Source: Chloroflexota bacterium (GTDB taxonomy: Bacteria; Chloroflexota; Dehalococcoidia; UBA3495). From it: DNA of 8,641 nucleotides. The position numbers and the translations under genes were made by a program. The notes below the pieces were generated by a model, which saw only the letters and a list, made by a program, of their open reading frames with translations, ran no database searches and was not told the DNA's origin. The DNA lies in NCBI GenBank assembly GCA_022571575.1, contig JACZXN010000051.1, forward strand, positions 1 through 8,641, in the 5' to 3' direction. Position 1 is the stretch's first letter. Every line of letters starts with the position of its first letter. Below are positions 2 to 6,749 of the stretch, in pieces.

Positions 2-1657
2 CTGGTGTTCTTCCTGGCGGCCTACCCCGTGTTCTTTCTGTTTCTCAATAGCTTCGTCGTCAGTGACCCCGGCAAGGCCGTCACCTGGGGGTTTGGCGCT
101 TGGATCGCGGCCTTCAACGACACCACCCTGATCGTTGCCTTGGCCAACACCTTCTCCCTCGCCGCCACGCGGATGGTGATCGCCGTCGCCATCGCCATCT
201 TTTTCGCCTGGGCGGTGACCCGCACCGACTTGCCGTTCAAGGGCTTCATAGAGGTCGCCCTGTGGCTTGGCTTTTTTCTTCCCGTCCTGCCCATGACGCT
301 GGGCTGGGTGCTGCTCCTGGACCCCGACTACGGGCTCATCAACAAGGCCCTGATGTATATTTTCGGACTCACCAAGGCGCCTTTGAATGTTTTCTCCTAT
401 TGGGGGATCGTATGGTGCCACCTGGCGTTCTCGGTCTCGATCCGGTTTCTCCTCCTATCGCCCGCGTTTCGGAGCATGGACGCCGCCCTCGAGGAAGCGG
501 CCCGCATGTCGGGCAGCAGCAATTTGGGTGCGCTGTTCCGGATCATCATTCCGATCCTGGCACCGGCCATCCTGGCGTCGGTCGCTCTCGGGTTCATCAA
601 GAGCCTGGAATCCTTCGAGATAGAGTGGATATTGGGTAATCCGGCGGGGATTTCCGTCGCCTCGACCAAAATTTACGACTTCCTTCATTGGGAACCGCCC
701 TATTACGGGCGCGCCACGGCGCTGTCGGGGGTATTCTTGGTGACCATCTTCTTCCTTGTTTGGCTGCAAAGAACGCTCATCGGTAGCCGTGAATATACCA
801 CCGTTACGGGCCGCGGTTTCTCGGTCAGGCCGATCCGCCTTGGCCCCTGGCGCTGGGTCTGTTGCGGTTTTTGCCTACTGTTTATCTTCGTCATGATCCT
901 GCTGCCCTTGGGGACCTTGATCATGGGGACGTTCATGAACGTGTTCGGGTTCTTCGACCTGGAAACGGTATGGACCATCAGCCACTGGGTAGAGGCCTTC
1001 GACGATTCGATCTTCCTCAACAGTCTCATGAACACCTTCATACTGGCCGTTGGCGCCACCCTGATCGGCGTCCTGTTCTACGCCCTGGTCAGTTATGCCG
1101 TCATCAAGACCCGTTTCCCGGGCCGGGGATTGATGGATTTCTTTTCCTGGCTGCCATGGGCCTTGCCCGGCGTCTTGCTGAGTTTGGCAATGCTCTGGAT
1201 CGTTCTTGGCAGCGGCGGCATTTTGCGTTTCATGTACGGCACCGTCATGGTTCTCATCCTGGCGGTCATCATCAAGGAAATGCCGCTCGGCACCCAGATG
1301 ATGAAGTCGGGAACCATGCAGATCAGCCGCGAGCTGGAGGAATCATCGCGCATGTCCGGGGCGTCCTGGATCACTACCTTCCGCCGCATCATGCTGCCGC
1401 TGCTGAACCCCACCCTGATTTCGGTGGGGATCGTGATGATCATCATTTCGGTGCGCGAAATTTCGGCCATCGTCTTCCTCTCGAGCTACAGCTCGCGGAC
1501 CATTTCCTTGCTGATGATGGACTACATCGAGGATCAGAGCCTGGAAAAGGCGACGGTGATCGGCGTCTTCACGGTCTTCCTGATCTTGACCCTTTTGTTG
1601 ATCGGCGGGTTGTTGGGATTGCGCAAAGCCCCGGGCGCCGAGGGCCAGGGCCAATAG
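2..1657 (+). CDS. Iron(III)-type ABC transporter permease, two fused permease domains (5' partial)
   Basis: Inner-membrane permease of a binding-protein-dependent importer. The reading frame is open to the left edge, and the visible N-terminus already lies inside a membrane helix, so the true start is upstream. About 551 residues are visible, rich in hydrophobic segments. There are two permease domains in one chain. Each carries an EAA loop, the site that docks the ATPase: ALEEAARMSG followed by a conserved I-x-P near residues 161-183, and ELEESSRMSG followed by LP near 443-465. The linker around residues 262-284 (SREYTTVTGRGF, then PIRLGPWRW) is typical of the Fe3+ (FbpB/SfuB-like) permease family with duplicated domains. 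From family knowledge, partners would be a periplasmic binding protein and an ATPase, presumably upstream outside the window. The substrate is inferred; polyamine, thiamine or phosphonate permeases are related alternatives. The stop lies 7 bases from the stop of the convergent gene, and no terminator is visible between them. Confidence 0.85.
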   Translation: MVFFLAAYPVFFLFLNSFVVSDPGKAVTWGFGAWIAAFNDTTLIVALANTFSLAATRMVIAVAIAIFFAWAVTRTDLPFKGFIEVALWLGFFLPVLPMTLGWVLLLDPDYGLINKALMYIFGLTKAPLNVFSYWGIVWCHLAFSVSIRFLLLSPAFRSMDAALEEAARMSGSSNLGALFRIIIPILAPAILASVALGFIKSLESFEIEWILGNPAGISVASTKIYDFLHWEPPYYGRATALSGVFLVTIFFLVWLQRTLIGSREYTTVTGRGFSVRPIRLGPWRWVCCGFCLLFIFVMILLPLGTLIMGTFMNVFGFFDLETVWTISHWVEAFDDSIFLNSLMNTFILAVGATLIGVLFYALVSYAVIKTRFPGRGLMDFFSWLPWALPGVLLSLAMLWIVLGSGGILRFMYGTVMVLILAVIIKEMPLGTQMMKSGTMQISRELEESSRMSGASWITTFRRIMLPLLNPTLISVGIVMIIISVREISAIVFLSSYSSRTISLLMMDYIEDQSLEKATVIGVFTVFLILTLLLIGGLLGLRKAPGAEGQGQ

Positions 1658-1664
1658 GCACCCT

Positions 1665-1853
1665 TCAGCTGTCGAACACCAGGCTCTTGATGACGATGGG
1701 CACGTAATCTTCGTCGGCAAGGCGGGCGCCGATATCGATGAAGTCCAGTTCCGACAGGGACACTTCGTCGATACAGGGGAGGCCGACCTCGGAAGACAGG
1801 ATCTCCCCCACCACCTGGGCGATGTTTTGTTCGAAGACAAGGACGTGGGGGCG
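1665..1853 (-). other. EutA C-terminal-like segment fused in frame to scoB
   Basis: This marks residues ~158-219 of the chimeric gene. EutA is the actin-fold ATPase that reactivates coenzyme B12-dependent ethanolamine ammonia-lyase. Only its last ~62 residues are represented, with the hallmark IDEV, D-(F/Y)-IDIG and VP-(I/V)-(V/I)-KSL-(V/A)-F motifs at the right spacing and ending naturally at the stop. None of the ATP-binding motifs of the EutA N-terminus are present. The exact junction with the CoA-transferase part lies somewhere in 1854-1901; residues 143-157 could belong to either parent. The assignment rests on remembered E. coli EutA sequence, not on a search. Confidence 0.7.
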
Positions 1854-2324
1854 GTCCTCGGGCGCCATGTCCACCAGCGCCGCGCGCAGGCCTTGGGCCA
1901 GGTCCATGGCCCCGCCCACGTTGCCCACACCCCGCTGGGGCAGCATCCAGTTGGCCAGGTCGCCGGTGGCCGACACCTGGTGGGAGCCCAGGACCGTCAC
2001 GTCGACATGGCCGCCCCGGATCATGGCGAAGGCCGCCGCCGAATCGAAGAAGGACATCCCGCCGACGCTCTGGAGGTACTGGCCTCCGGCGTTGATCAGG
2101 TCGATGTCCTCGTCGCCTTCTTGCCCCGCTTCAACGACGGGCCCGCAGTTAAGGATGCCGCTTTCGCTGTGGTAAAAGACGGTCCGGCCCTCGGGCACAA
2201 AGCTGGAGACCATGGTTGGGATACCGATGCCCAGGTTCACGTAGGCGCCGTCGGGCAACTCCTTGGCGACCCGCATGGCGACGATCTCCCTGGGCAGACG
2301 CTCCTTATCGGCTAACGATGTCAT
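1665..2324 (-). CDS. Chimeric protein: N-terminal CoA-transferase subunit B joined to a EutA-like C-terminus
   Basis: 219 residues. Residues about 8-142 are a clear family I CoA-transferase beta subunit (ScoB/AtoA/PcaJ type). They include the glycine loop NLGIGIPT (30-37), the catalytic motif HSESGIL with Glu54, LINAGGQ (76-82), MIRGGHVDV (101-109), GDLANWM (121-127) and GGAMDL (137-142). After that the ScoB pattern stops: the usual ECSLPLTG block and remaining ~65 residues are absent. Residues ~158-219 instead match, from memory, the end of E. coli EutA, in order: VFEQNIAQ (EutA AEQDFGK), CIDEV, DFIDIG (EutA DYIDIG), VPIVIKSLVF (EutA VPVTVKSLAF). The other two frames over 1665-1900 do not restore a ScoB C-terminus, so a simple frameshift does not explain it. 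The ATG is preceded by a weak AGG about 9 bases upstream. It is the last gene of the CoA-transferase operon, 49 bases after the fusion gene. The catalytic Glu is present, but the fold is probably incomplete, so activity is doubtful. A contig join inside the gene is an alternative. Confidence 0.85.
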   Translation of the reverse strand: MTSLADKERLPREIVAMRVAKELPDGAYVNLGIGIPTMVSSFVPEGRTVFYHSESGILNCGPVVEAGQEGDEDIDLINAGGQYLQSVGGMSFFDSAAAFAMIRGGHVDVTVLGSHQVSATGDLANWMLPQRGVGNVGGAMDLAQGLRAALVDMAPEDRPHVLVFEQNIAQVVGEILSSEVGLPCIDEVSLSELDFIDIGARLADEDYVPIVIKSLVFDS

Positions 2325-2344
2325 CAGTTGGACCTGTACTTGAG

Positions 2345-2367
2345 ATTATACCCACTCGGCGTTTTAA
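2345..2367 (-). promoter_or_regulatory. Possible internal -10 element before the chimeric CoA-transferase B gene
   Basis: The minus strand has a perfect TATAAT at 2350-2345 in the 49-base gap between the fusion gene and the chimeric B gene. Hexamers 16-18 bases upstream (around TCCTGT) are poor -35 matches. Transcription from here would give a leader of only about a dozen bases. It may be an AT-rich chance match in a GC-rich genome. Confidence 0.22.
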
Positions 2368-2373
2368 ACAGGA

Positions 2374-3762
2374 TCAAAGATATGCGGAGAAGTCCGCCGG
2401 CCGGAGTACGATGCGGTCGATGAACAGGCCTGGGGTGACGATCTCCTCGGGGCCCAATTGTCCCGGTGCCACGATCTCGTCGACCTCCACCACCGTTACC
2501 CTGGCCGTGGTGGCCATCACCGGGTTGAAGTTCCGGGAGGTGCCCTTGTAGACCACGTTGCCCAGGGTATCCGCCTTGTGGCCCCGGATGATGCAGAAAT
2601 CGGCCCGCAACCCCTTCTCCAGTATGTATTCTTTGCCGTCGATGGTCCTGGTCTCTTTGCCTTCGGCCAGCAGGGTACCCACCCCGGTGGGCGTGTAGAA
2701 CGCCGCCACTCCCGCCCCGCCGCAGCGGAGACGCTCGGCCAAAGTCCCCTGGGGCACCACCTCCAGTTCTGTCTCGCCCCGGTTGTAGGCCTCCTCGAAG
2801 GCGCTGGGCCGGGAGGCTGATGGCGACACGGGGTAGGACGCGGTGGCCTTGGCCACCTGGTTGTTCTCAACCAGGATGCTATGGTCGATGATGTTGGGCG
2901 CTCCGAACCCGCTGACCCGGGCGACCCCGGCAGTGTTGCTGATCAACTCCAGTCCCTTAACGCCCAGGTCGCGCAGTCCCACCATCAAGTAGTGGGCCAT
3001 CCCGCCGGGGCCGGCGAAGCCGTCAACGTTGATGACCGCACCTTCAGGCACGTCCTTGAGGGCCTCCACCGCGCTGGGGTAGACCTTGTTGGGCATTTCC
3101 AGGGATGGGACTTGAAAGGTCATTTCCTTGACGCCGGATGAGACGGTCAGCGGCGCATCCGTGATGGCAATTACCTCTTCGGCGGTCCAACCGGGCGCTG
3201 TCTCCACCAACTCGAGACCCGAGGGACCGGCGTTCATCACCGCCACGCCGGTGATGATTATGTTGACCTGGCCGGCCCCGTCCACCGGCAGGCTGCACTT
3301 CTCAACGATGTTCGACCGGCCATCCGGGCTTTGGTGGGGCATAACCGCCACCACCCTCGAAGCCCCGTAGGCCATGTCCACCGCCGGTCCGGGGGCGAAC
3401 AACCCTTGGGTTGCCCCGGTCGTCCAGTGGACGAAATCTCCGTTGGCGGCCACCTGGACCGGCTGCAGGAAGGCGATATCAGTATGCCCGCCCCGAAGGA
3501 TGCCTGCAATGTCCACCACTCCAGTGTAAGCGCCGCCGGGCAGCATCATCACAGGTTGGCATTCCTGGTCCGCGGCATCTTTGTCCCGGCCTTGGAATCC
3601 TAGAAAACCACTATCCGAGACCAGCCATACACCACTTCCGTTGGTCAGTTCGCTGGGCAAGCTGCAGGGCAAGCCCGGACCCAGAGCGGCCACGGCTCCG
3701 GCAAAAAGTTCCTGGGCGGCGCGGCGGATCAAAAAAGACCGTTCTAGAGGTGTTCCAGGCAT
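2374..3762 (-). CDS. CoA-transferase with reversed domain order: B-like domain fused to A domain
   Basis: 462 residues holding two family I CoA-transferase domains. Residues ~6-208 align with beta subunits: GPGLP glycine loop (28-32), ILRGGHTD (88-95), NGDFVHW (107-113), GPAVDM (125-130), EKCSLPV (154-160). Residues ~224-462 align with alpha subunits: DGFAGPGG loop (247-254), VVPQGTLAERLRCGGAG (335-351), YTPTGVGTLLAEGKE (356-370), KADTLGN (396-402), SRNFNP (409-414), VVEVDEIV (424-431). Eukaryotic SCOT is A then B; here the order is B then A. In the B half the catalytic S-E-x-G motif reads VSDSG, so Asp50 stands where the CoA-binding Glu belongs. The linker is only ~15 residues, and the internal Met223 has no suitably spaced ribosome site, so one polypeptide is expected. 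The start has AGGAG 11 bases upstream, 20 bases after the stop of the A gene. By family it would transfer CoA between carboxylic acids; the substrate is unknown and the Asp may alter or abolish activity. Confidence 0.88.
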   Translation of the reverse strand: MPGTPLERSFLIRRAAQELFAGAVAALGPGLPCSLPSELTNGSGVWLVSDSGFLGFQGRDKDAADQECQPVMMLPGGAYTGVVDIAGILRGGHTDIAFLQPVQVAANGDFVHWTTGATQGLFAPGPAVDMAYGASRVVAVMPHQSPDGRSNIVEKCSLPVDGAGQVNIIITGVAVMNAGPSGLELVETAPGWTAEEVIAITDAPLTVSSGVKEMTFQVPSLEMPNKVYPSAVEALKDVPEGAVINVDGFAGPGGMAHYLMVGLRDLGVKGLELISNTAGVARVSGFGAPNIIDHSILVENNQVAKATASYPVSPSASRPSAFEEAYNRGETELEVVPQGTLAERLRCGGAGVAAFYTPTGVGTLLAEGKETRTIDGKEYILEKGLRADFCIIRGHKADTLGNVVYKGTSRNFNPVMATTARVTVVEVDEIVAPGQLGPEEIVTPGLFIDRIVLRPADFSAYL

Positions 3763-3782
3763 CTGCGGATGATCTCCTGTGG

Positions 3783-4484
3783 TTAGGCGGACAATACCAG
3801 GCGGTCGATGAATATGGCTTGGGTGATGACCAGTTCCGGGTCTAGCCCACCCGGCTCGACCACCCGGTCAACCTCAACCACCGTGACCGCGGCGGCCATG
3901 GCCATGGTGGGGTTCCAGTTGCGGCCGGTCCCTTCGTACACCATGTTGCCCAGGGTATCGGCGGTCGTGGCCCTCAGCAGGGCGAAATCGGCCTTCAGAG
4001 CAAATTCTAAGACGTGGTCTTTGCCGTCGAACCGGCGCGCCTCTTTGCCCTCGGCGAACCTGGTGCCCACGCCGGTGGGCAGGAACACGCCGCCGATGCC
4101 CGCGCCGCCCGCTCTCAGCCGCTCGGCCAAGACCCCTTGGGGCACGACTTCCAGTTCCAACTTGCCCGACTCCCACAGCTCTTTCACCGGGCCGCCGTGT
4201 TCCGGGTGAAACGGCAGGGGCGAGACCATCTTCTTGACCTGTCCGCCGGCAACCAAGTCACCGACGCCAAAGGCGCCTGATTCCTGGATCCACGCACCCT
4301 GGCAGATCAGGGTCAGATCGCCAACCCCGGTCTCGGCCAGCCCGCGGAGCAGTTTCTCCGGCTCCCCGCGCCCGGACCAACCGGCGATCAGCACAACCGC
4401 TCCGTCGGTGACGTCCTCCAAGGCCGCCCGGGCCGAGGCGAAGACCTTGCTCCGACTGGAGGAATTTCCGGGAACGCTGGTCAT
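3783..4484 (-). CDS. CoA-transferase subunit A (family I, 3-oxoacid/SCOT type)
   Basis: 233 residues, the usual length for a stand-alone alpha subunit (ScoA/AtoD/PcaI type). Visible motifs are the N-terminal glycine loop IAGWSGRGEPEKLL (about 33-46), VVPQGVLAERLRAGGAG, FLPTGVGTRFAEGKEARRFDGK, TADTLGNMVYEGTGRNWNP and the terminal VVEVDRVVEPGGLDPELV. The alpha subunit supplies half of the dimer interface and acyl/CoA site; the catalytic Glu sits on the beta subunit. It is the first gene of the operon, with AGGAA seven bases before the ATG and a TATAAT about 50 bases upstream. The next gene starts 20 bases after its stop. It is a clear paralogue of the C-terminal half of the fusion gene, which suggests an ancestral duplication of an A-B pair. 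Acetoacetate, succinate, adipate and similar acids are all possible substrates; the sequence alone does not decide. Confidence 0.9.
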   Translation of the reverse strand: MTSVPGNSSSRSKVFASARAALEDVTDGAVVLIAGWSGRGEPEKLLRGLAETGVGDLTLICQGAWIQESGAFGVGDLVAGGQVKKMVSPLPFHPEHGGPVKELWESGKLELEVVPQGVLAERLRAGGAGIGGVFLPTGVGTRFAEGKEARRFDGKDHVLEFALKADFALLRATTADTLGNMVYEGTGRNWNPTMAMAAAVTVVEVDRVVEPGGLDPELVITQAIFIDRLVLSA

Positions 4485-6722: not shown

Positions 6723-6749
6723 TTAGCACTCTCAACCCGAGAGTGCCAA
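6723..6749 (-). promoter_or_regulatory. CIRCE operator (HrcA binding site)
   Basis: TTAGCACTC, nine bases, then GAGTGCCAA. This matches the consensus TTAGCACTC-N9-GAGTGCTAA at 17 of 18 positions; the only change is C for T in the right arm. It lies about 60 bases upstream of the groES start and overlaps the predicted transcription start. By established knowledge HrcA binds CIRCE and represses groESL until heat stress. hrcA itself is not in the window. The inverted repeat also lies upstream of the divergent crotonase gene. Confidence 0.95.

Follow-up and report, generated by a model that had tools for sequence, protein, structure and literature searches.

An in-frame scoB–eutA open reading frame in a Chloroflexota contig, most likely an assembly chimera of two intact genes

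The 219-residue open reading frame (ORF) at positions 1665-2324 on the minus strand of the window, that is, of the whole 8,641-nucleotide stretch of DNA analysed, is most probably no new fusion protein but a chimera, created in assembly (or amplification), of two intact genes, each of a known kind; the plus strand gives no such protein there. We put at about 86 per cent the probability that the ORF is an artefact, with one contig linking two unrelated loci through no more than 21 identical nucleotides (1896-1916), encoding the word GGAMDLA in the same frame in both. A misjoin is favoured because the crossover is confined to this short chance repeat and because both parents are intact. The ORF consists of the following parts.

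1896..2324, minus strand: 5' part of scoB (3-oxoacid CoA-transferase subunit B), residues 1-143 (PF01144, TIGR02428, identity to P0001, gene order of loci L001-L006)
1896..1916, minus strand: 21-nucleotide stretch encoding GGAMDLA, a word of both parents, which holds the crossover (limits of the P0001 prefix and the P0241 suffix, blastn)
1665..1916, minus strand: 3' end of a eutA-like gene, residues 137-219 and stop codon (PF06277, identity to P0241)

A preliminary description of this DNA had proposed an in-frame chimera of ScoB and EutA, and the domain content bears this out. Using hmmscan against Pfam, PF01144 (CoA_trans) was found at residues 13-147 (E 4.8e-25, profile positions 2-147 of 217), followed up to the end of the ORF by PF06277 (EutA) at residues 141-217 (E 4.3e-14), both above their cut-offs. 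The latter match is restricted to profile positions 394-474 of 475 and is therefore not that of a near-complete EutA. Among NCBIfam models, TIGR02428 matches over profile positions 3-142 of 207 (E 4.8e-55), with 186.2 bits against a curated cut-off of 243.55 bits, so that the ORF does not qualify as a full-length ScoB; EutA models also match, with E down to 1.9e-11. Taken alone, the last 73 residues still match PF06277 (E 2.1e-14). Thus, the chimera is real in the sequence, but its EutA part had been placed too late, at about residue 158, whereas identity to a full-length EutA begins at residue 137. Similarly, only the right end of the interval originally suspected of holding the junction, 1854-1901, overlaps the true one at 1896-1916 (residues 137-143).

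Each half of the ORF has an intact counterpart at the protein level. The best match to the whole ORF among the 120 proteins listed of 8000 scored is P0001, a normal ScoB of 228 residues, which is letter-identical to residues 1-143 of the ORF and diverges beyond. The last 85 residues of P0001, missing from the ORF, belong to the normal protein: of 80 scoB genome loci, 79 align with P0001 at least as far as residue 210 (the remaining one, L014, as far as 203), and the alignment of P0001 with the best solved B subunit spans residues 11-226. A search with the tail of the ORF (74 residues scored) returned 222 proteins, the best 120 of which all carry PF06277 and none PF01144, according to a precomputed column. 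The top protein of this search, P0241, is a full-length EutA (511 residues). Its C-terminal 83 residues coincide letter for letter with residues 137-219 of the ORF, which lacks the first 428. Histidine-rich N-termini were observed in P0241 and in its EutA relatives P0243, P0244 and P0252. A comparison of P0241 with PDB sequences gave nothing better than E 0.15.

The two parents share the word in which they meet. P0001 reads NV-GGAMDLA-TG and P0241 reads GY-GGAMDLA-QG; the prefix common to P0001 and the ORF stops at residue 143, and the suffix common to P0241 and the ORF begins at residue 137. The identical DNA at the junction cannot exceed 21 nucleotides (1896-1916), an upper bound deduced from the proteins and not from parental DNA, because the flanking residues, V or Y before the word and T or Q after it, are irreconcilable by any choice of codons. 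Consistent with these limits, when the window was compared by blastn with 110 loci, with the matches of L001-L006 and L08x-L12x inspected, similarity to the six loci L001-L006 started at 1896 (L001, L002, L004 and L005) or 1897 (L003 and L006) in every case. Counting against the misjoin, the scoB stretch of the closest of them, L004, differs from window positions 1896-1916 at one base; the exact 21-mer occurs once in 122 loci, in the scoB of L009. GGAMDLA is present in only one of the best 120 listed EutA proteins, P0241 itself. By a random-sequence estimate, 2.4e-7 exact 21-mers would be expected between this pair of genes; the same kind of estimate gives about 2e5 pairs of places sharing an exact 21-mer in 1e9 bases of metagenome. 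A shared 21-mer is consequently rare for this gene pair and everyday for an assembler, and 21 is a common smallest k in assembly; 59 papers contain both ‘k-min 21’ and MEGAHIT.

The join would have been made in silico, in a small-k de Bruijn graph, or during DNA amplification, and not in a cell. Both the carrying of contigs built at small k into assembly at larger k and the formation of chimeric contigs through shared k-mers have been described; the same source adds, as a point against a misjoin here, that some assemblers break such contigs by means of read pairs (PMC7299287).

The right parent is a Chloroflexota (SAR202-type) locus carrying an operon of scoA, a B-A fusion and scoB, together with groESL. 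The genes of this operon upstream of scoB are given below.

2374..3762, minus strand: fused B-A CoA-transferase of the right parental locus (TIGR02428 at 9-206, TIGR02429 at 223-453; syntenic in L001-L006)
3783..4484, minus strand: CoA-transferase subunit A (scoA-type) of the right parental locus (TIGR02429, E 6.8e-70; syntenic in L001-L006)

The order of eight genes, ech2, php, ech, groES, groEL, A, BA and scoB, is kept in all six loci L001-L006, whose record titles read SAR202, Dehalococcoidia or Chloroflexi; scoB accordingly has the placement expected in a scoA–scoB operon, with A, BA and scoB in conserved order. DNA similarity between the window and these loci covers the CoA-transferase–groESL block. 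The CoA-transferase operon (1896-4484) has three members, namely A, B and, between the two, a reversed B-A fusion, and the A, BA, scoB order was seen in 10 of the first 12 loci (L001-L009 and L011), counting only A and BA matches of at least 40 per cent. An inverted repeat at 6723-6749, composed of TTAGCACTC, 9 bases and GAGTGCCAA, lies immediately upstream of groES (minus strand, start 6707) and is, by its appearance, a putative CIRCE/HrcA operator.

The left parent would be an ABC-permease/eutA locus in which the two genes presumably lie side by side. Its other gene in the window is the following.

2..1657, plus strand: ABC transporter permease, of iron(III) type going by the names of its relatives and truncated at its 5' end by the window edge (PF00528)

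The permease and the ORF are convergent, with stop codons 7 nucleotides apart. The closest relatives of the permease are P0124 (99 per cent identity; partial, 88 per cent of the query), P0121 (94 per cent), P0122 (89 per cent) and a further one at 88 per cent. A neighbourhood of permease and eutA is suggested by P0122 and the second-best match of the tail search, the EutA protein P0242: for both, the longest JGI contig given measures 7936 bases. In L148 and L149, from two genomes of the class of genome G004, EutA and permease genes that are more distant likewise lie together on a contig. On these two grounds, positions 1-1916 probably derive from a permease/eutA locus. The EutA-like genes beside ABC permease genes occupy L148:586-11781 and L149:3-4692, the latter with an ABC-ATPase-like ORF and another ORF in between. 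The left 1895 bases of the window gave five short blastn matches in 149 loci, the best being 81 per cent over 54 nucleotides.

A second explanation is a genuine and very recent event of illegitimate recombination, which would have fused scoB with eutA at the short repeat within a single cell lineage and left an in-frame relic. We consider this improbable. The two parts do share orientation, frame and a short repeat, the requirements of microhomology-mediated joining; P0124, the permease relative at 99 per cent, was labelled ‘Chloroflexi bacterium’ by its depositor, and genes of both kinds, EutA-like and ABC permease, are present in Chloroflexota. Given the P0124 label, both halves could come from one genome, and codon usage does not separate them (G/df 1.72 between left and right against 0.94-2.20 among eight right-hand pieces). 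However, since parents with identical residues exist, such an event could only be very young, and its product would be a broken scoB; the junction is absent from all listed relatives. Further, EutA proteins in the order of G004 are distant from P0241: matches at E <= 1e-30 were found in 19 of the 250 genomes, with identity of at most 50 per cent among the best six or fewer first-look candidates scored per genome. (In this order, a single genome had as many as six EutA matches.) The more specific version of this scenario, an in-frame scoB–eutA fusion made at a repeat no longer than 21 bp within a Chloroflexota population that retains both intact parents, is likewise improbable. Of the two origins first suggested, misassembly and in vivo deletion, the former is therefore favoured by the intact identical parents, the crossover within a shared word and the lack of the fusion in the listed relatives, the latter being unlikely.

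The ORF tail matched in none of the five genomes of L001-L005 (a search run without positive control); among 393 genomes in the class of G004, 20 had a match, with identity of at most 49 per cent. P0241 had matches in 26 of 400 genomes sampled across the phylum of G004 (at most 55 per cent identity, scoring the best three or fewer first-look candidates per genome) and, at E <= 1e-100, in six of the 29 genomes from the class of G663, again with at most 55 per cent. The permease matched in six of 10 genomes at E <= 1e-20, the best at 45 per cent over a 190-residue fragment and 38-39 per cent near full length, and, at E <= 1e-60, in none of 18 genomes from other groups (without positive control). 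Viral contigs contained neither relatives of P0241 or of the permease nor the exact 21-mer. That no close eutA was found among relatives of the right-hand genome is in keeping with a join across organisms, although the P0124 label points the opposite way.

The fusion itself was also sought among the listed relatives and found in none of them. The EutA motif DFID[IVF]G occurs in none of the best 120 listed ScoB proteins of the whole-ORF search, and ScoB motifs occur in none of the best 120 listed EutA proteins of the tail search. A protein with both halves should outscore P0001, and there was none among the matches listed. Judged by titles or the first lines of abstracts, the literature likewise yielded no EutA/CoA-transferase fusion.

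These counts weigh against a third explanation, which we regard as extremely improbable: a working fusion protein, with a fragment of a CoA-transferase B subunit attached to a reactivase module of EutA type. The ORF is open and in frame, both Pfam matches exceed their cut-offs, and in a predicted structure the EutA part (residues 141-210) has block means of 72-88 pLDDT. The architecture is nevertheless found in none of the 240 best listed homologues, and the idea of a tethered domain is not supported by the composition of the ORF: ScoB is without its last 85 residues, in a family whose best solved B subunit spans P0001 residues 11-226, and EutA contributes just its last 83 of 511 residues. Structure prediction, proposed earlier as a check, gave models of low confidence for both proteins, with a mean pLDDT of 48.7 for the chimera, whose ScoB part stays below 50, and of 41.3 for the intact control P0001, modelled with the same 23 rows.

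The misjoin reading carries a caution for annotation. Where the repeat is codon-aligned, a misjoin can yield an ORF that stays in frame, has two domains and matches known proteins significantly in each half, and protein databases can take up ORFs of this sort as novel fusions. The contig, too, may carry genes from two organisms.

Compared with known systems, the ORF resembles the ScoB/PcaJ 3-oxoacid CoA-transferase subunit B (TIGR02428, PF01144) in that residues 1-143 are identical to those of intact P0001, but it differs in lacking the last 85 residues of that protein. It resembles the EutA family of ethanolamine ammonia-lyase reactivating factors (PF06277) in that residues 137-219 are the C-terminus of P0241, but differs in lacking the first 428. 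With the chimeric contigs of small-k de Bruijn assembly (PMC7299287), it has in common that intact sequences are joined within a short repeat, in an arrangement that the listed relatives do not share.
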